Origin: a virus
Virus record (IMG/VR): IMGVR_UViG_3300006802_000170
Span: 1 to 44,381 of that record
Direction: 5' to 3' (one strand)
Length of the DNA: 44,381 nt
This document shows positions 21,851 through 29,906 of this stretch, one piece after another. The first letter of the stretch is position 1. Every line of letters begins with the position of its first letter. A program made the translations under genes and the position numbers. The notes under the pieces were generated by a model. That model saw only the letters and a list, made by a program, of their open reading frames with translations, was not told the DNA's origin and searched no databases.

Positions 21851-22729
21851 CTAACCTATTAACTCTATCTTTTTACTTAGTAAATTACTATTAATTACTA
21901 AGTGTTCTCTAACTTGCTCATTTACAATACTTGAGAAGTTTAATCTATCTTTAATACTTGTAAATTTAGGATATTCTTTACGTTGAATTAGATAATTATT
22001 CAAATTATCAACAACTGTTATCTTAAAGCCTTCTTTTTTAAGCTTATTTAATACAGCTGTTTTAAACTTCTTACCTAATTTAGTGTAATCACCTTCTTTC
22101 TCTAATAAACAACTATCGACTAATACTTCAAATATCTCTGGTAGTGGTTTCTCATTAAGATATAAACATAATTTATAATAACTAACATGTTCTTTTTTAA
22201 CAACGATAGTAGCTAATAACTTATCATCTACATCTTTTAATAGTCCAAACATTGTAGATAATTTGTATAACCTAGTATGTTGTATAGTAAATTTACTATT
22301 TTTTAAAAAGTCATTAAATAAACTATCATAACTAGCTCTATTAGAATAACCGTATTTACCTGAAGGAATACTAATCGTAGCTTGTTCATCTGCTCCTTTA
22401 GTTATAGTGTTATAAAGTATAGATTTAGAAGTTTTAAGAAAGTTTAAATAGTCTTGTTTATTTATAGTACTACTACTAACTTGATTATACTTTTCAACTA
22501 AAATCCTAGATAAATGATTTTCTTTAGATATATCATATAATTTAGTAAATATTTTATTATTCTTTAAATTACGTCTATATAAATACCCATTAACCTGTGT
22601 TTTCATAAAAGGTATAACAGCTACTGGAATAACATCTAAATCTTTAAATCTATTAAACGCATTATTATCTCCTACAGTATGTATATTTGCAAATATAGAG
22701 TCTTTGATGTTTAAATTTAAATTTAACAT
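21851..22729 (-). CDS. Unrecognised 292-aa protein coupled to the E1 gene
   Basis: Not recognised. The product is lysine- and asparagine-rich and mainly helical, with short beta stretches, and has no Cys pair, Walker motif, zincin or membrane segment. Residues 100-150 contain a Gly/Ser-rich turn (SIPSGKYGYSN). The C-terminal half has a region that could be a winged helix (LLEKEGDYTKLGKKFKTAVL). The gene overlaps the E1 stop by 7 bases and is the last gene of the E2-JAMM-E1 unit, so by position it is part of the Ubl cassette: a target, adaptor or regulator are all possible. Confidence 0.7.
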   Translation of the reverse strand: MLNLNLNIKDSIFANIHTVGDNNAFNRFKDLDVIPVAVIPFMKTQVNGYLYRRNLKNNKIFTKLYDISKENHLSRILVEKYNQVSSSTINKQDYLNFLKTSKSILYNTITKGADEQATISIPSGKYGYSNRASYDSLFNDFLKNSKFTIQHTRLYKLSTMFGLLKDVDDKLLATIVVKKEHVSYYKLCLYLNEKPLPEIFEVLVDSCLLEKEGDYTKLGKKFKTAVLNKLKKEGFKITVVDNLNNYLIQRKEYPKFTSIKDRLNFSSIVNEQVREHLVINSNLLSKKIELIG

Positions 22730-23430
22730 TCTACGTCAAGTGTTATTGTTGGTATATCAAAAACTGTTTTAAATGGCACTTCTCTTAAAGAGTCGCCTAA
22801 TTTAATATTAAATATATAGTTAGTAAATATACCCATCATTACAGATGCTATCATAGCCCCACAATGACTAGTTGCTTTTACTGTACAAGCTGCTTCTTCT
22901 ACTTCAGAATCATCAAACAATGTAGCTCTATATCTATCTTCTTGTCCAGGTACTACTGCGTATACTTGAAAACTCTCCATAGCCAATCTACCGTCAATAT
23001 ATATTTGTCTATCTGGGTTTTTACACCAGTTTTCAAAGAATATCTTTCTAGCAGACATATTATCAAAGCATGAGAACATTATATTATCATACTCTGACTC
23101 AGCAGTATATTTTGAATTTACAGCAATTGTGTTATAATTCAAAGAATATTCTTGAGTCATTTTATTTACAGCATCAACCTTACTACTTCCTATTTGACTT
23201 TGTCTAAATAGTTGATTACCTTGATTATGAGGTTCAACTGTATCATCATCAAATAATATTAAGGTATAACCAGCTCTAGATAGCATAAAAGCTAACATAG
23301 AGCCAATACCACCAACTCCACCTAATATCATAGTATAATTAGGGTCATACCAAGGTATACCTTTAAATCTAGCATGATGTTCTGGAGCATTATCAACCAC
23401 TGAAGGTTGTTCTACTAATGTTTCTTCCAT
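22723..23430 (-). CDS. E1-like ThiF/MoeB-family adenylyltransferase, 235 aa
   Basis: Activates the C-terminus of a ubiquitin-like protein by adenylation. The Rossmann glycine loop is clear (LGGVGGIGS, 36-44), followed by the acidic strand end LFDDDTVE (59-66), then HNQGNQLF and IGSSK (80-84), which match the ThiF pattern D-x-V-x-x-x-N-x-x-R-Q-x-x-F...IG-x-x-K. The usual arginine is N72 here. C121, in the SCFDN turn, and C182 or C190 are candidate catalytic cysteines. It is a single E1 domain without rhodanese or E2 fusion. It starts one base after the JAMM stop and overlaps the next gene by 7 bases. Confidence 0.9.
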   Translation of the reverse strand: MEETLVEQPSVVDNAPEHHARFKGIPWYDPNYTMILGGVGGIGSMLAFMLSRAGYTLILFDDDTVEPHNQGNQLFRQSQIGSSKVDAVNKMTQEYSLNYNTIAVNSKYTAESEYDNIMFSCFDNMSARKIFFENWCKNPDRQIYIDGRLAMESFQVYAVVPGQEDRYRATLFDDSEVEEAACTVKATSHCGAMIASVMMGIFTNYIFNIKLGDSLREVPFKTVFDIPTITLDVEC

Positions 23431-23431
23431 A

Positions 23432-24304
23432 TTAATATACGTTAAATGTTATTAATTTTCTTGTTTCTGCTAATAAATCATCTAAAAACTTAGAGTTTAC
23501 ATAATCTAAAGATAGTTTACCTAAAATAGCACTTACATGTGTGTAAGATTTATTTGTAGGTTCATATCCAAAGTATTCTTCAAACTCATGATCAAAGCTA
23601 CTTTTATAAAAATCTAATATAAATACTTTACTAGATTCAGCTGTAGGATTTGTATCATTATCTAATTCATCCATTAAAGACTTCATAACATAGTCAAAAT
23701 CATTGATACTTTTATCAAATGATAGTAACTGTGCTAAAAATGTTTTAATGTTAGCTTCTGTTAATGGAACAACCTTATTAGCTGACCATTTATTTACAGT
23801 TACTGATTTACCTGTTTTTCCAGATTTAAGTTTAACTGGTTTATGATATTTATGTGGTCTATCATCTTCAAATAATAAAGAAGATGCTTTATCTTTTAAT
23901 TTTGGATAATATCCAGCATAATCATCTTCCCAAAAACTTCTTTGTCCACCATAAGCTACTTTTTTAGGTTTATTATGTTCTTCCCATAAAGAAGCTACTC
24001 TGTCTTTAAATTCTGTAGGTAGTTCAACTTCAGGTTTAGACATAACAATATCTAAATCAACTAAGTTTAAAATTTCTTCAACAGTATCTACTGTTTTCTC
24101 ATCAACTTTAACTATACCGTTAGAACCTTTAAATTCTTCTGTAATAGAACCTTTAATAGTTTTCTTACTGATGTAAGCTATTTTACCACACCAATTAGTA
24201 TAATCTTTAAAGTTAACAATTAACGATAAATAGTAGTTATACGATGGCGCATTCTCATGTAAAGCTGTATTATCTGTACCTGAGAAGAAGCAGTTCATAT
24301 TGTG
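23432..24304 (-). CDS. JAMM metalloprotease, exon 2 (C-terminal part)
   Basis: Exon 2 begins inside a codon-aligned splice junction: the first codons read His-Asn-Met-Asn-Cys-Phe-Phe and then SGTD, giving the second half of the JAMM motif (S123 and D126 of the spliced protein). It adds 290 residues, for a 405-aa product. After the JAMM core the protein is charged and largely helical; residues about 250-300 contain KLKSGKTGKSVTVNKW. The ATG at 24298 is an internal methionine codon and not a natural start, because the frame stays meaningful five to six bases upstream. The E1 gene begins one base after this stop. Confidence 0.85.
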   Translation of the reverse strand, partial: HNMNCFFSGTDNTALHENAPSYNYYLSLIVNFKDYTNWCGKIAYISKKTIKGSITEEFKGSNGIVKVDEKTVDTVEEILNLVDLDIVMSKPEVELPTEFKDRVASLWEEHNKPKKVAYGGQRSFWEDDYAGYYPKLKDKASSLLFEDDRPHKYHKPVKLKSGKTGKSVTVNKWSANKVVPLTEANIKTFLAQLLSFDKSINDFDYVMKSLMDELDNDTNPTAESSKVFILDFYKSSFDHEFEEYFGYEPTNKSYTHVSAILGKLSLDYVNSKFLDDLLAETRKLITFNVY

Positions 24305-25402
24305 CGAATGTTACGATTAGTTTTTTAATTATCTAATCCTTAATTTTTGTTAAAATTTGTTTTTATTAATTAAAAGCTGTATATTAGTCATCATTAAATG
24401 ATAATATGAAACTTAAATTACTTTATTTAAAAGATGAAATTGCTAATATGTACACTAATGGTATTAATATACCAAATATAGCAAAACACTTTAATTGTTA
24501 TCCTCAAGCAGTTGAAAATGTTCTTAAACATTTAAATTTATATAAATCTTATAGACCTGATCAAGGAAATACAAGATATTTTGAAAATATAAATTCTGAA
24601 ATAAAAGCCTATTTTGTAGGTTTTATAGCAGCTGATGGATGTGTACAATCAAATGGTAAAAATTCATACGGTTTAACTATAACTCTTCATGAAAAAGATA
24701 GAATAGTGCTAGATAAACTTAGAGAAGAAATAGGTAGTGAAAAACCACTAATGTTAATTCCTTCTAAAAATCACATAAGATTTACTTTATTTAATAAAGA
24801 TTTGTATAATGATTTAAATAACTTAGGTATAATACCTAAGAAAAGTTTAATAATTGGAGATGTTATAAAAAACATACCTGAAGAATATAGACATTCTTTT
24901 GTTCTTGGTTATTTTGATGGAGATGGCTCTGTTGTATTACCAAAACATCCAAAAAAACCAAATATTAATACTAAAAGAATCTGCATTTTTATAAGAGGAA
25001 CGGAAGCTTTACTATCAGGAATTGCTCAAGAATTAAATCTAGAACAATACATGTTAAAATCTTATGACTCTACTTATACTTTAAGGTTTTCTAAAAAATC
25101 AGAAATTATTAAATTTTTTAATCTTTATACTAAAAACAAATTCTTTTTATATAGAAAATATGAAAAATTTCTACAAAGAATTAATTAAGATCAGACTATA
25201 TCACCTTCTTATTACTCATATAAGAAGTTGGGCGTTCGTGGATATATTATGTTCTACTAAATGTAGTTTCAATATCTAGTCGTTGCACCTTTTATAAGCA
25301 TTTAACTTATAACTTGGCTCAGGATTGAAGCTCTTTACACTCTTTCCCTGAATTAACCCAATTATTCAATAGAGATCACTCTCTAAGGCCACCATAATAT
25401 TA
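24305..25402 (-). ncRNA. Group I self-splicing intron (1098 nt) in the JAMM gene
   Basis: All four conserved core elements are present on the minus strand in order: P element AATTCAGGGAAA (25343-25354), Q element AATCCTGAGCCAAG (25313-25326), R element GTGCAACGACTAGA (25275-25288) and S element GATATAGTCT (25193-25202). P pairs with Q through CAGG/CCTG (P4); R pairs with S through GACTA/TAGTC (P7). P8 is CTTCTTAT/ATAAGAAG (25205-25227). P1 forms between exon end CCAU and intron GUGG (25389-25392), giving the expected U-G wobble at the 5' splice site. The last intron base is G (24305), and GATTAG/CTAATC (24315-24338) forms a hairpin near the 3' end. Exon 2 CACAAU can pair with AUUAUG in a P10-like helix. 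Exact ends are inferred. Confidence 0.92.
24406..25188 (+). CDS. LAGLIDADG homing endonuclease, antisense within the group I intron, 260 aa
   Basis: Two LAGLIDADG helices are visible: VGFIAADG (71-78) and LGYFDGDG (167-174), with acidic residues at D77 and the equivalent Asp of the second copy. This makes it a single-chain two-repeat enzyme able to cut an asymmetric intron-less target. Residues 1-45 look like a helix-turn-helix (INIPNIAKHF, then a recognition helix), a common DNA-binding addition. The gene lies on the strand opposite to the intron and its host gene, between the S element and the 3' splice site, so it must have its own transcript. It ends 5 bases from the S element. It presumably spreads the intron among related phages. 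Confidence 0.9.
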   Translation: MKLKLLYLKDEIANMYTNGINIPNIAKHFNCYPQAVENVLKHLNLYKSYRPDQGNTRYFENINSEIKAYFVGFIAADGCVQSNGKNSYGLTITLHEKDRIVLDKLREEIGSEKPLMLIPSKNHIRFTLFNKDLYNDLNNLGIIPKKSLIIGDVIKNIPEEYRHSFVLGYFDGDGSVVLPKHPKKPNINTKRICIFIRGTEALLSGIAQELNLEQYMLKSYDSTYTLRFSKKSEIIKFFNLYTKNKFFLYRKYEKFLQRIN

Positions 25403-25747
25403 ATGGGTATGGATTCCTCCAACTTTTAAGTCAGGATCTTCCATAGCTGCCATAACTTTATCATCAGCATACTCATCACCACTAAAGAAATCAAATTCTG
25501 TATAAGTGCTTGTGCCAATATCTGTAGGAACTACTTCTACAGCTTCTAATTCAAAGTTAGCTAAATCTTCAATAGAACCTTTAGTTACTTTAAAGATTAA
25601 AGGGCCACTCCATTCAATAGCCCCTATAGTTTTATGTAATAACTCAACTTGAGCTATAAAAGCATCATTTAAAACTAACTTAACTTTCTGTTTTAACTGA
25701 TTCTCTTTAAATTTAACAGGTGTTTTACTTGTGTTTATTGTACTCAT
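25403..25747 (-). CDS. JAMM/MPN+ metalloprotease, exon 1
   Basis: JAMM enzymes are zinc isopeptidases that remove or process ubiquitin-like proteins. Exon 1 holds the catalytic glutamate E45 (GAIEWSG) and the zinc ligands H113 and H115 (GGIHTH), then meets an intron-encoded TAA at once. Joined to exon 2 at 24304 the motif becomes HTH-x7-SGTD, the exact JAMM spacing, in frame (115 + 290 residues). Its ATG overlaps the stop of the E2-like gene by 4 bases, so it is translationally coupled. Without splicing a 115-aa product lacking S123 and D126 would be made, predicted to be inactive. Confidence 0.9.
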
Positions 25748-26889
25748 AAGTGGTCAATATTATTATAATAATCGTTTATTAAAAATTCTAACTTTTCAGT
25801 TACTTCTTCAACTATTCTAGGATTAGGATATTTAATACCTATATCTGTAGAATCTTTATCTACTACAGGTTTAATTTTATAAAACACATCTTTGTTTTTA
25901 AATTTAAACATAGGTGTAGTAACTTCTTTGTTAATTGCATCTATTTCAGAATTAGATATATTACCTCCTATTTCAGTATATATACCATTAGGCAGCCTGT
26001 AATTAAGTTTAGTAGTACATTTAGCCAACTGTTGTAAATAACCCTCATCTTTTTTATTTATAATTAGTTTATCACCATCTTTGGTGTTAATTAATTTAAT
26101 AGGTATATTGTATTTTTTATCATTTAATATAGTTCTTGTAAAAGCTACCATAGCATTCTCCACATCTGAATTATTGATGGTTGTACTATTAAATTGTTGT
26201 CCAATTTTAATATTATTCATTTTAAAGAAAGGTACACCTTCTAACGACTCCCAAGCAACATAATCCATAAGTTGATACAATAAGCCTTCAAAGTCCATAA
26301 AGTTGAAATCTACAGCTAATCCTGCTAATAAATCAGACATCTCTGTACCACTACCAACACATAAATCTCCAAAACCTTGTGTACCTGTTCTAATATGAGA
26401 ATGTCTATATCTACAGTGATATTCAGCATATGTAACAGATTCTCTACAACCGTATAAAGTACCACCAAATTTATATTTAGCAGTATCTTTGTTTTCAGTT
26501 TTAATAAAGTTTATAGCTATATATAAATCATCTACAATATGTGATTGTCCTAAAGTATTATATAATACAGTAGAATCAAATTTTATCAACAGTGTTTTCA
26601 CAGGTCTACCATAATGATCTACAAAATGACGATGATCTGTTATTAAATCACAGTGATTTGGATATATTTCTTCAGTTAATTTTAAAACAGCGTCAAAAAA
26701 TGAAGGATCTTCTATTGTAGGCTCTTTTAATATTTCTTCAGTTGTAATAGGTTCAATTGTTGTTGACGGTTGGTCTATTTGTACTGCAATAGGTTGTTCT
26801 AATACTTCTTCTACTTGTTCTACCATAGCACCTATGGTTTCAAGCTCTTCAAATTGAGCTAACATAGCTTCAAATTCATCATTATCCAT
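25744..26889 (-). CDS. E2-like (ubiquitin-conjugating fold) protein, 381 aa
   Basis: Residues 1-70 are acidic and low-complexity (many Glu, Thr, Pro). A globular domain follows at about 75-260. It has a segment with C159 and H163-S-H165-I, then G-x-G-D-L-C177-V-G and a hydrophobic helix, matching the layout of prokaryotic E2 families (His-Pro-like turn, spacer, then catalytic Cys in a CxG context). C177 is therefore the candidate thioester cysteine. The C-terminal 120 residues are mixed alpha/beta and unrecognised. It is the first gene after the terminator at 26893-26935 and overlaps the JAMM gene by 4 bases. The E2 call rests on motif layout and the E1/JAMM/Ubl neighbours; a structure prediction would settle it. 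Confidence 0.65.
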   Translation of the reverse strand: MDNDEFEAMLAQFEELETIGAMVEQVEEVLEQPIAVQIDQPSTTIEPITTEEILKEPTIEDPSFFDAVLKLTEEIYPNHCDLITDHRHFVDHYGRPVKTLLIKFDSTVLYNTLGQSHIVDDLYIAINFIKTENKDTAKYKFGGTLYGCRESVTYAEYHCRYRHSHIRTGTQGFGDLCVGSGTEMSDLLAGLAVDFNFMDFEGLLYQLMDYVAWESLEGVPFFKMNNIKIGQQFNSTTINNSDVENAMVAFTRTILNDKKYNIPIKLINTKDGDKLIINKKDEGYLQQLAKCTTKLNYRLPNGIYTEIGGNISNSEIDAINKEVTTPMFKFKNKDVFYKIKPVVDKDSTDIGIKYPNPRIVEEVTEKLEFLINDYYNNIDHL

Positions 26890-26892
26890 ATA

Positions 26893-26935
26893 TTTTAAAA
26901 TAAAATAGACTGAGGTTGTTATCCCTCAGTCTATT
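26893..26935 (-). terminator. Rho-independent terminator between the 44-aa and E2-like genes
   Basis: A 12-bp perfect stem AATAGACTGAGG/CCTCAGTCTATT (26904-26915 with 26924-26935) is followed on the minus strand by TTTATTTTAAAA. It could limit expression of the E2-JAMM-E1 genes relative to the Ubl gene upstream. Confidence 0.75.
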
Positions 26936-26949
26936 ATTAATAAATCTAA

Positions 26950-27084
26950 TTAATACAACTTATTAGCTTCACTATCTACAGCATTCAAAGATTCATCAGT
27001 TTCATCAACTATGACATCTTTAAATTGCTTAAATAAGTCATTAAATTTCTGATCTAATAACTTTCTATGCTCTTCAATAGTCAT
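26950..27084 (-). CDS. Small acidic hypothetical protein, 44 aa
   Basis: The ATG overlaps the stop of the Ubl-like gene by one base (TAATG). The product is helical by composition and acidic at its C-terminus (VDETDES). It ends just before the terminator at 26893-26935. No family was recognised; tight coupling to the Ubl gene supports that it is real and part of the same unit. Confidence 0.6.
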   Translation of the reverse strand: MTIEEHRKLLDQKFNDLFKQFKDVIVDETDESLNAVDSEANKLY

Positions 27085-27335
27085 TAGTTTTTGTTACCAG
27101 ATTTAACTTTAGAAGCACTTAAGAAGATAGTAAACTCACCTGTAGGCAATACAGCGTTAGCATCTTCTAAGTTGTTTCTAGTTTCTTTAACTCTAACTGT
27201 CATCTCATTAGCTAATAAATAAGAGGTATCTTGATTAGATTGAATTTCACTTTTCAATTGACCCCATGTAGTAGCATTAGACATAACTTCTTTGATACCA
27301 TCTGCACCAGCTGCATAAATTTTAATTTTTCTCAT
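27084..27335 (-). CDS. Ubiquitin-like beta-grasp protein, 83 aa
   Basis: Size and pattern fit the ThiS/MoaD/ubiquitin fold: an N-terminal beta strand (KIKIYAAG), a second strand, a helix introduced by ATTWGQLKSEI as in ATTVGDL-type Ubls, a middle strand (MTVRVKE), a turn with acidic residues, and a last strand LPTGEFTIFLSASKVKSG. It ends SG-NKN rather than Gly-Gly, so exposure of G80 would need removal of three residues, a job suited to the JAMM protease encoded downstream. It is the probable substrate of the E1- and E2-like proteins. The call is by fold pattern and context, not by close homology. Confidence 0.6.
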   Translation of the reverse strand: MRKIKIYAAGADGIKEVMSNATTWGQLKSEIQSNQDTSYLLANEMTVRVKETRNNLEDANAVLPTGEFTIFLSASKVKSGNKN

Positions 27336-28203: not shown

Positions 28204-28921
28204 TTGGATATAAATCTTTAGATAAATCAGATTGAAAGAACTCTTTAGTATCTACATTCATTATTGTAGCTACACCTCCCCAACCAGCCCCTGTATCTAG
28301 ATTCCATACATTACAAGCATTAATAGGACTTGTTGTACCCCAATTAATTGTGCTTGTATGACCTATAAATATCTCTTTATGAGCTCTTAATTGTTTAGGA
28401 AGTTCAGCATTACCTAAAGCATAAGATCTAGCACCTGACATAGCTGTTGAGAATAAATCTCTATCCCAGTAATATTCAGCTTGCGTAGACTCATGGCCTA
28501 AACCTTTATTAGATGTATATCCTCCATGTACAAAACCTCTATTTTGATCATCTATATAATAATTAACCTGTCTAGCAAAAAACTCAAAACAATGACTATC
28601 TTTTAAATGAAAGTTAATATCATATGCTTCTTTAGTTGATTTACCTCCTTGAGTAATCCAAATATTATGTGCAGATCCAAATCTCATCCAATCAAAGCAC
28701 CATTCATCATGATTACCTCTGATAAAGATCATATTATAATCTTTCTGCATATCTAATAGTAATTGTACACATTCAGGCACTTGACTCCAACCGTCTACTA
28801 TATCACCTAATGATATAATAGTATCTCCTTTAGATATAGATGCTTTTTCAAAAATTTGATTTAAACCTTTATATGAGCCGTGGATATCTCCAAAAACCCA
28901 TGTTTTATTTAATTTCTCCAT
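28187..28921 (-). CDS. PPP-family metallophosphatase (lambda phosphatase-like), 244 aa
   Basis: Shows the signature of phage and bacterial PPP phosphatases: GDIHG near the N-terminus, GDIVDGW, RGNHDEW, then FVHGG and FIGHTST in the C-terminal half, which together bind two metal ions. Members such as lambda phosphatase and PrpA remove phosphate from Ser/Thr, and some hydrolyse dinucleoside polyphosphates; the target here is unknown. It overlaps the primase gene by 17 bases, so it is co-translated with replication genes. It is a different subfamily from the phosphoesterase at 15868-16461. Confidence 0.85.
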   Translation of the reverse strand: MEKLNKTWVFGDIHGSYKGLNQIFEKASISKGDTIISLGDIVDGWSQVPECVQLLLDMQKDYNMIFIRGNHDEWCFDWMRFGSAHNIWITQGGKSTKEAYDINFHLKDSHCFEFFARQVNYYIDDQNRGFVHGGYTSNKGLGHESTQAEYYWDRDLFSTAMSGARSYALGNAELPKQLRAHKEIFIGHTSTINWGTTSPINACNVWNLDTGAGWGGVATIMNVDTKEFFQSDLSKDLYPNENSR

Positions 28922-29906
28922 CTATAAACTGTTTTAATTCATCATAACTATATTTATCAACAAAATCACTAGGATCTTTTACTCCTTTATCCAAAGGTAT
29001 TTCAATAGTTTGAATATTGTATTTTAATTTGTACTTGTTAGCATATATAATACCTGCTTCATCATTGTCAAATAATACTACAATTTTCTTAAATCTACTG
29101 TTTAAATCATCAAATTGCTCTTGATTAATTACTATACCTTCAGAGTTAGGAGCTACTGAATTATAACCGAGCTTATCTAATATGATAACATCTTTCAAAG
29201 CTTTTGTAATAATCAATAAATCTCCAGTATCTGCTAATTGATTATAACCTTGTATAACAGAAGAATCTGCATTTGAAAACCACTTACTAGATTTGTTATT
29301 ATAAGGTTGATACACCTTCCATATATCTATATTATCTTGTTTACCAAAGTAATAAGCATATGAATTATTGCCACAACCGTATAATTTATCATTTATCCAA
29401 TAATGTGATATTGCATATACATTAAACTTATTTAAGTCATTGACTGATATCTTATATTTATCATTCCAATATTTTAAATCATGTATAATGCTCCAAGGTC
29501 TTATAGTTACTTTAATAGAAGCTTTCTTAAGCTTTAATTCTTCTAGAGAAGGTTGTTTATCAGGTAATCCAAAATAAGCCATAGGAACGTCTAATTTTGA
29601 CGTTGTATTAAATCCTAATTGTAAGTTAAAGTCTATATTAATCCTATTGATTGCTCCAATAAAATCTAATCCAAACTTAGTCATTACATAACTGATTGCA
29701 GATAATGATGTACCATCTCCAAAGTCTTTGTACAACAATTTTGTACCTGTACTATAAATATAGCAACTTGGATGTTCATCATCTCTCAATTCAGATATAA
29801 AAGGTTTACCTATTTCTTTAAAGTTCTTACAATAATTAATGAATATATCATAGTCTGATAAACTTTTATAAATGTTAGATACAGTTAAAGGTTTTCTTAT
29901 ATACAT
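28905..29906 (-). CDS. DNA primase, TOPRIM type, 333 aa
   Basis: Makes RNA primers for replication. The N-terminal ~90 residues resemble the primase zinc-binding domain in layout (HPSCYIYSTG...YKDFGDGTS) but lack a full set of zinc cysteines. The TOPRIM domain begins near residue 225 with LLIITKALKDV, where the usual Glu position is Thr-Lys, and continues with VVLFDNDEAG, the Asp-x-Asp metal site. A conserved KDPSDF element lies near the C-terminus. There is no fused helicase; a separate DnaB-like helicase is encoded upstream at 31940-32998. Confidence 0.8.
   Translation of the reverse strand: MYIRKPLTVSNIYKSLSDYDIFINYCKNFKEIGKPFISELRDDEHPSCYIYSTGTKLLYKDFGDGTSLSAISYVMTKFGLDFIGAINRINIDFNLQLGFNTTSKLDVPMAYFGLPDKQPSLEELKLKKASIKVTIRPWSIIHDLKYWNDKYKISVNDLNKFNVYAISHYWINDKLYGCGNNSYAYYFGKQDNIDIWKVYQPYNNKSSKWFSNADSSVIQGYNQLADTGDLLIITKALKDVIILDKLGYNSVAPNSEGIVINQEQFDDLNSRFKKIVVLFDNDEAGIIYANKYKLKYNIQTIEIPLDKGVKDPSDFVDKYSYDELKQFIDGEIK

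Follow-up and report, generated by a model that had tools for sequence, protein, structure and literature searches.

Does a crAss-like phage carry, among its replication genes, a complete system of its own for tagging proteins in the manner of ubiquitin? Complete bacterial ubiquitin-like cascades are known mainly as host defences or from plasmids, and crAss-like phages are among the most abundant viruses of the human gut. The question is raised by the IMG/VR virus record IMGVR_UViG_3300006802_000170, a crAss-like phage whose whole stretch of 44,381 nucleotides was analysed (hereafter the window). An earlier note, made from the letters of the window alone, had described within 5.5 kb a cassette of genes for a ubiquitin-like protein (Ubl), an E2-like protein, a JAMM isopeptidase, and a ThiF-type E1, had likened its gene order to that of PRTRC-type cassettes, and had suggested protein tagging during phage replication. 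All four open reading frames (ORFs) are present where it placed them, on the minus strand. The observation was confirmed, and the interpretation was partly supported, with PRTRC membership failing; what the note had overlooked was the precursor form of the Ubl with its conserved K-S-G cleavage point, a 44-aa (amino acid) ORF, and the virus-specific distribution.

The four families are real and are linked far beyond chance: practically every complete related locus has all of them, in the same order. Linkage was counted in 98 related loci, in which the order was always Ubl-E2-JAMM-E1, next to the primase. The E2 was absent in only 3 and the JAMM in only 2, all of them contig-end fragments, and the Ubl was truly undetected only in L036 and L088. 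The primase lay no more than 3 kb upstream of the Ubl gene in 72 loci, which are all those where a primase was found; UDG and nucleases were further neighbors, and none of the partners ThiG, ThiH, or MoaE was noted among them. A family profile scan for the E1 recovered 261 contigs in IMG/VR and two matches in 257 Gb of GTDB one-per-species genomes, both on contigs of metagenome-assembled genomes. The E1 family is essentially virus-specific and nearly absent from cellular genomes. Its carriers are highly diverged phages, with hosts from the gut, from water, and among fish pathogens, including Flavobacterium psychrophilum phages (Fpv type) and Steigviridae such as crAss001 and DAC15. The crAss001 genes are gp79 (Ubl precursor), gp78 (E2-like), gp77 (JAMM), gp76 (E1), and gp75 (gene Y, described below), and in crAss001 and DAC15 the cassette genes are annotated only as "thiamine biosynthesis" (E1) or hypothetical. 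Phage phi14:2 gave no E1 match at the sensitivity used, and not all crAss-like phages carry the cassette.

The Ubl gene (27084–27335; phrog_15560, 1.2e-9) encodes an 83-aa precursor with a single domain of about 80 residues, which ends in K76-V-K78-S-G80 and is followed by a predicted removable tail, NKN. The AlphaFold2 model, built with 61 relatives (predicted local distance difference test, pLDDT, 83.5), has the order β-β-α-β-(β)-β, and its Foldseek matches in the PDB were mostly ubiquitins and MoaD-type proteins (probability ~1.0, template modeling (TM) score 0.5–0.65), among them bacterial and archaeal ubiquitins in complex with E1-E2 or JAMM enzymes. The structure prediction for which the earlier note had called thus placed the protein in the beta-grasp fold. 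The end of the domain was counted over 73 distinct (non-redundant) Ubls: it reads [KN][SAG]G in 71 and RSG in the other 2, and K78 and G80 are conserved across the relatives. At least one residue follows the motif glycine in every one of the 73 (1–4 residues in 12, more than 30 in 58), the tails ranging from 1 to ~250 residues. As judged from their sequences, all 73 are precursors that do not end at the motif glycine, and this form, with a conserved end motif and a tail throughout, is new here.

The tail evolves fast, with a pooled ratio of nonsynonymous to synonymous substitution rates (dN/dS) of 0.75 versus 0.21 for the Ubl domain. In the window, an acidic helical 44-aa ORF (26950–27084, minus strand), a detached counterpart of the C-terminal extension, overlaps the Ubl stop codon (TAATG). 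Of the 13 loci with a short-tailed Ubl, 12 have a small ORF of 32 to 131 aa that either overlaps the Ubl stop or comes after it; the extension is therefore either part of the Ubl precursor or a protein of its own. Similarity among these small ORFs is only weak, as between those of the window and L058 (E = 1.2e-5). Since tails are always present, and are fast-evolving or have a separate small ORF in their place, we infer that the JAMM would cut behind the motif glycine before activation by the E1. No Pfam identity could be given to the extension (SAP, E = 0.12; HeH/LEM, 0.028; single members only, not significant). As a separate observation, the long tails (L005–L063, e.g., L009:7123–7392) have a common helical module, ...LR..I...A..HFN.GKNYT.K...L..LL..., which is vaguely SAP/HeH-like, again without significance, and might be a DNA-binding propeptide. 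In cr106_1 (L016:4788–5991), the Ubl ends in KIKSGKF, and an HNH endonuclease ORF separates it from a 130-aa ORF similar to the remainder of the extension; the precursor gene thus seems to be interrupted by a mobile gene just past the predicted cleavage point.

The JAMM protease gene is interrupted. Exon 1 (25403–25747, minus strand; phrog_21448, 2.7e-9) runs from M1 to ...GGIHTH, and exon 2 (23432–24304, minus strand; phrog_16107, 1.7e-8) runs from HNMNCFFSGTD... to the end and includes a C-terminal region of ~270 aa. Between the second and third histidine codons of the HxHH motif lies a group I intron (24305–25402, minus strand), with an Rfam match to RF00028 at 25176–25412 (63.8 bits, E = 1.4e-15), a T before the intron, and a G at its end. 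The splice was placed by comparison with relatives, in which the motif is uninterrupted at this point (18 of the 18 first compared). The spliced protein of ~405 aa contains E-WSG and HTHHNMNCFFSGTD, so that the glutamate and HxHx7SxxD signature of the JAMM/MPN+ family is complete in the window once the intron is removed, as the earlier note had proposed; the residues E, H, H, S, and D do not vary across 50 relatives. An intein in place of the intron was rejected: the 5′ exon is followed by stop codons, and the Rfam match is to a group I ribozyme. A LAGLIDADG homing endonuclease is encoded antisense in the intron (24406–25188, plus strand; PF14528, 4.9e-9; phrog_4645, 2.8e-45). Group I introns also occur in the JAMM motif of L078 (6705–7158, 79.5 bits), apparently at the same site as in the window, and of L087 (6154–6366, 69.8 bits), two codons upstream, with splice points read from the sequence; group I introns have entered these active-site codons at least twice (two sites, three phages).

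The E1-like adenylating enzyme (22723–23430, minus strand) is a single domain of 235 aa that matches Pfam ThiF (PF00899) at 2.2e-18, above the cut-off, in agreement with the ThiF-type E1 first described. The invariant residues include the nucleotide-binding glycines of GxGGI, D61xD63, R128, and Cys182. Cys182, the predicted catalytic residue, is the single invariant cysteine, lies in LFDDSEVEExPCTxKQTSH, and aligns by profile with the cysteine of PRTRC E1s. The E1 is the slowest-evolving member of the cassette and is under strong purifying selection (dN/dS 0.08–0.28 in 14 close pairs). Its nearest sequence family in the PDB is UBA5 (E = 2e-15); profile searches of the PDB with the Ubl, JAMM, and E2-like sequences gave nothing useful. 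The Steigviridae E1s (L016, L018) have an extra N-terminal region of ~130–170 aa, which the window E1 does not have.

The E2-like protein (25744–26889, minus strand) has 381 aa and a predicted active-site cysteine, Cys177, in Y-x-HSHI...FGDLCVG. Eight residues (S164, H165, C177, G179, E214, S215, G218, and P220) are invariant in 61 sequences, among them the cysteine that a catalytic UBC protein should conserve. The AlphaFold2 model (pLDDT 82) has a helix, four strands, Cys177, and two helices, which is the UBC order. Of the six PRTRC profiles tried with hhalign, PRTRC_B was the best for this protein (E = 0.1), with its active cysteine on C177. The earlier claim of an E2-like protein with a candidate Cys177 is borne out as to the cysteine and the order of elements, and the predicted fold gives it only moderate support. 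Pattern, invariance, topology, and context together make the assignment as E2 a moderate one.

A distant E1 (31% identity) was also seen in two jumbo phages, Xanthomonas PhiXhv-12 (PV764601, L126:5241–8615) and Erwinia Ep032 (227 kb), where it adjoins an 892-aa cysteine-rich protein with a clear E2-type motif, HPHM...GSLCLG. The pair is flanked by DNA ligase and topoisomerase genes. A hidden Markov model (HMM) detected no JAMM at these loci, and the two proteins may represent a second phage ubiquitin-like lineage.

The setting is the replication module of a crAss-like phage, as first described. A 1223-aa plus-strand ORF resembles RNA-polymerase-type proteins of Cellulophaga phi14:2 and crAss phages, and the minus strand encodes a DNA polymerase, a DnaB-like helicase, Sak4, a primase, and a ribonucleotide reductase, of which the primase (28905–29906, minus strand; phrog_12622, 5.8e-39), helicase, Sak4, and polymerase lie upstream of the cassette, the primase being its conserved neighbor. 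In transcription order, the strand reads primase, phosphatase, RusA-like gene, Ubl, 44-aa ORF, terminator-like hairpin, E2-like, JAMM, E1, and gene Y. The close spacing of the genes is as the earlier note reported, with the correction that the 194-nt gap between Ubl and E2-like genes holds the 44-aa ORF besides the hairpin (26904–26935, minus strand), which resembles an intrinsic terminator by consensus match only (12-bp stem, then a T-rich tail). Gene Y (21851–22729, minus strand; 292 aa) lies directly behind the E1, a conserved position, and was found in 66 of the 98 loci with its own HMM; it evolves fast, and no Pfam or PHROG match, family, or well-conserved motif was found for it.

We propose that the cassette probably encodes a complete, phage-owned cycle of ubiquitin-like conjugation. 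The Ubl would be made as an inactive precursor, which the JAMM would cut behind Gly80 to take off NKN in the window and, in relatives, as many as ~250 residues. The single-domain E1 would adenylate Gly80 and then form a thioester through Cys182. The tag would pass to Cys177 of the E2-like protein, which would join it, without a separate E3, to target proteins synthesized or encountered while the phage DNA is replicated, and the same JAMM could take it off. The position of the genes suggests that the targets lie in or around the replication machinery and that tagging takes place during phage replication; they would be replication or host proteins.

Several points weigh against this cycle. The substrates, thioesters, and conjugates of the phage Ubl are all putative, and so is transfer without an E3. 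None of the Foldseek matches of the Ubl in the PDB reached E ≤ 0.001, as is usual for so small a fold. The weakest link is the E2-like protein as a true E2: its best PDB fold match, TSG101-UEV (E = 0.048, probability 0.60, TM by target 0.38–0.47), is suggestive, not decisive, and not significant alone, and UEV proteins are E2 variants that lack catalytic activity. The E2-like protein also changes quickly beyond its core and in part within it; the rapid change beyond the core would be consistent with target binding or with an arms race.

These doubts lead to the least unlikely of the alternatives, that the E2-like protein is not an E2 and that the E1 hands the Ubl straight to its targets, as with SAMPs. 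The weak fold score, the lack of a Pfam E2 match in any of 50 E2-like members, and the lack of a significant match to PRTRC_B fit such a route. Nevertheless, we consider it unlikely, given that Cys177 directly follows a UBC-like four-strand element in the motif Y-x-HSHL...FC-x-G, that hhalign places it on the active cysteine of PRTRC_B, and that the jumbo-phage relatives have the motif in a clearer form.

The cassette might instead disarm ubiquitin-like host defences of the Bil, type II CBASS, or 6A-MBL type, the JAMM stripping host conjugates or the phage Ubl and E2 competing with those of the host. The chemistry of these defences is the same (PMC11354881, PMC10097602), and the fast evolution of the E2-like protein and the Ubl tail is that of arms-race proteins. 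However, stripping needs no full forward pathway, the E1 is the slowest-evolving member, and the cassette is kept at a fixed position in the replication module across the very diverged phages listed above. Counter-defence as the function is improbable on this evidence, and the two readings are compatible, as the tag may be placed on host proteins.

Slightly more improbable is a sulfur-carrier pathway, in which a ThiS/MoaD-like Ubl and a ThiF/MoeB-like E1 would yield a thiolated nucleotide, RNA, or cofactor, with the JAMM freeing the carrier terminus (Mec+/CysO-type). The E1 is a ThiF-superfamily member with its highest NCBIfam score against ThiF (51 bits), the beta-grasp fold is common to sulfur carriers, MoaD is among the structure matches of the Ubl, and phages do modify nucleotides. 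Against this, the E1 scores far below the cut-offs (51 versus 159 bits for ThiF; 28 versus 266 and more for MoeB) and stands apart from ThiF and MoeB in the tree, as the earlier note had required of a tagging enzyme; no rhodanese domain or partner synthase was seen, the Ubl ends in K-S-G plus a tail and not in a free GG, and the conserved E2-like protein with its invariant cysteine is left unexplained. Protein tagging rather than cofactor synthesis, as that note had suggested, is more likely, and thiamine or molybdopterin synthesis was rejected on the E1 scores and the tree. Finally, a processing module that only releases the Ubl and its extension as two proteins, without conjugation, is very improbable: an invariant cleavage-like point and the separate extension ORF of short-tailed phages fit it, but it needs neither E1 nor E2, both invariant at the catalytic cysteine, and short-tailed phages retain all the genes though only 1–4 residues are removable.

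If the conjugation cycle is real, a phage-owned cascade in a replication operon would reverse the usual host-defence roles and would be the first suggested post-translational control system of crAss-like phages. Tagging of proteins by a phage, as in our own cells, is directly testable because crAss001 and DAC15, which carry the cassette, are culturable. The label "thiamine biosynthesis protein" is misleading in many phage records. No prior report of the phage cassette was found in the open-licence literature, the scope of the search (subscription journals and preprints lay outside it). We give about even odds to the wider proposal that this is a virus-specific lineage of complete Ubl conjugation systems, kept as a near-core part of the replication module by a large clade that comprises crAss-like phages and related phages of Bacteroidota. 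Such systems would attach a JAMM-matured Ubl to replication or host proteins during infection and would lie outside PRTRC, Bil, CBASS, and the other described families.

By sequence comparison, the cassette resembles PRTRC, Bil, CBASS, and ThiF/MoeB systems in its predicted working but is a member of none. With ThiF/ThiS and MoeB/MoaD it shares the ThiF-type adenylation fold and a beta-grasp partner; the phage E1, however, scores 51 bits against a cut-off of 159 (ThiF) and 27.5 against 266 (MoeB), forms a separate clade, and has E2-like and JAMM partners but no biosynthetic neighbors. UFM1 is likewise a precursor trimmed after a glycine, and among PDB sequences its E1, UBA5, is closest to that of the phage, with no direct relation claimed; trimming of UFM1, however, depends on a cysteine protease, and the pathway employs UFC1 and UFL1. 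Type II CBASS (Cap2/Cap3) and 6A-MBL systems have a similar E1 (PADLOC E1-E2, best 2.2e-10, partial) and a JAMM partner, but their E2 and E1 are fused and they have no separate Ubl; CBASS identity was rejected because the phage genes are separate, with no fused E2-E1 and no CD-NTase among the annotated neighbors. In lambda-type tail assembly (TAPI/TAPK; Iyer 2006), phage genes likewise include a Ubl whose C-terminal extension is predicted to be processed by a JAB domain (PMC1779556), although without E1 or E2 and in the tail module, not the replication module.

Bil systems also have Ubl, E2, JAMM, and E1 as four separate proteins, and their deubiquitinase trims the Ubl to expose a glycine (PMC11354881). 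BilA contains a pair of Ubl domains, BilB carries a C-E-H-H motif, and BilD combines an inactive and an active adenylation domain with a Cys domain (PMC11354881). By contrast, the phage Ubl is a single domain and not a tandem ISG15-like protein, the E2-like protein lacks the C-x5-E-x-H-x4-H motif and any conserved histidine after C177, and the E1 is a single 235-aa domain rather than a two-domain enzyme with an inserted Cys domain. Bil identity was rejected as all three defining features are absent, and Bil is a host defence whereas this cassette is phage-borne.

The closest likeness is to the PRTRC cassette of plasmids, operon type 6d (Iyer 2006). The phage order is the plasmid order C-(F)-B-A-ThiF without F, in agreement with the earlier note; both have a single short Ubl and separate genes near DNA-maintenance genes, the phage E1 and JAMM can be aligned by profile (99% and 95%), and the E1 cysteine is at the same place. 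Some PRTRC cassettes of Bacteroidota plasmids (L101, Phocaeicola massiliensis; L100, Tunicatimonas) apparently have no separate JAMM (PRTRC_A) between E2 and ThiF. On the other hand, the phage E1 scores 38.2 bits against a PRTRC_ThiF (TIGR03736) cut-off of 144.75, and in a tree with long branches the phage E1s group together with only moderate support (78/92), separate from the PRTRC ThiF clade (100/99). The phage Ubl and E2 had no NCBIfam match, and the profiles PRTRC_B and PRTRC_C, each the best of the six for phage E2 and Ubl, gave no significant match by hhalign (E = 0.1 and 0.13). The phage JAMM lacks the N-terminal alpha+beta domain that precedes the JAB domain in PRTRC (Iyer 2006), its core starting near residue 27 and its profile alignment ~50 residues into PRTRC_A. 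Phage Ubls are always tailed after the glycine, where most sampled PRTRC_C proteins end at it, and no PRTRC E, F, or ParB gene is annotated in the phages, which are of virulent type and not plasmids. On the profile scores, hhalign, and the tree, we rejected membership in PRTRC and kept it as the nearest analogue in gene order.

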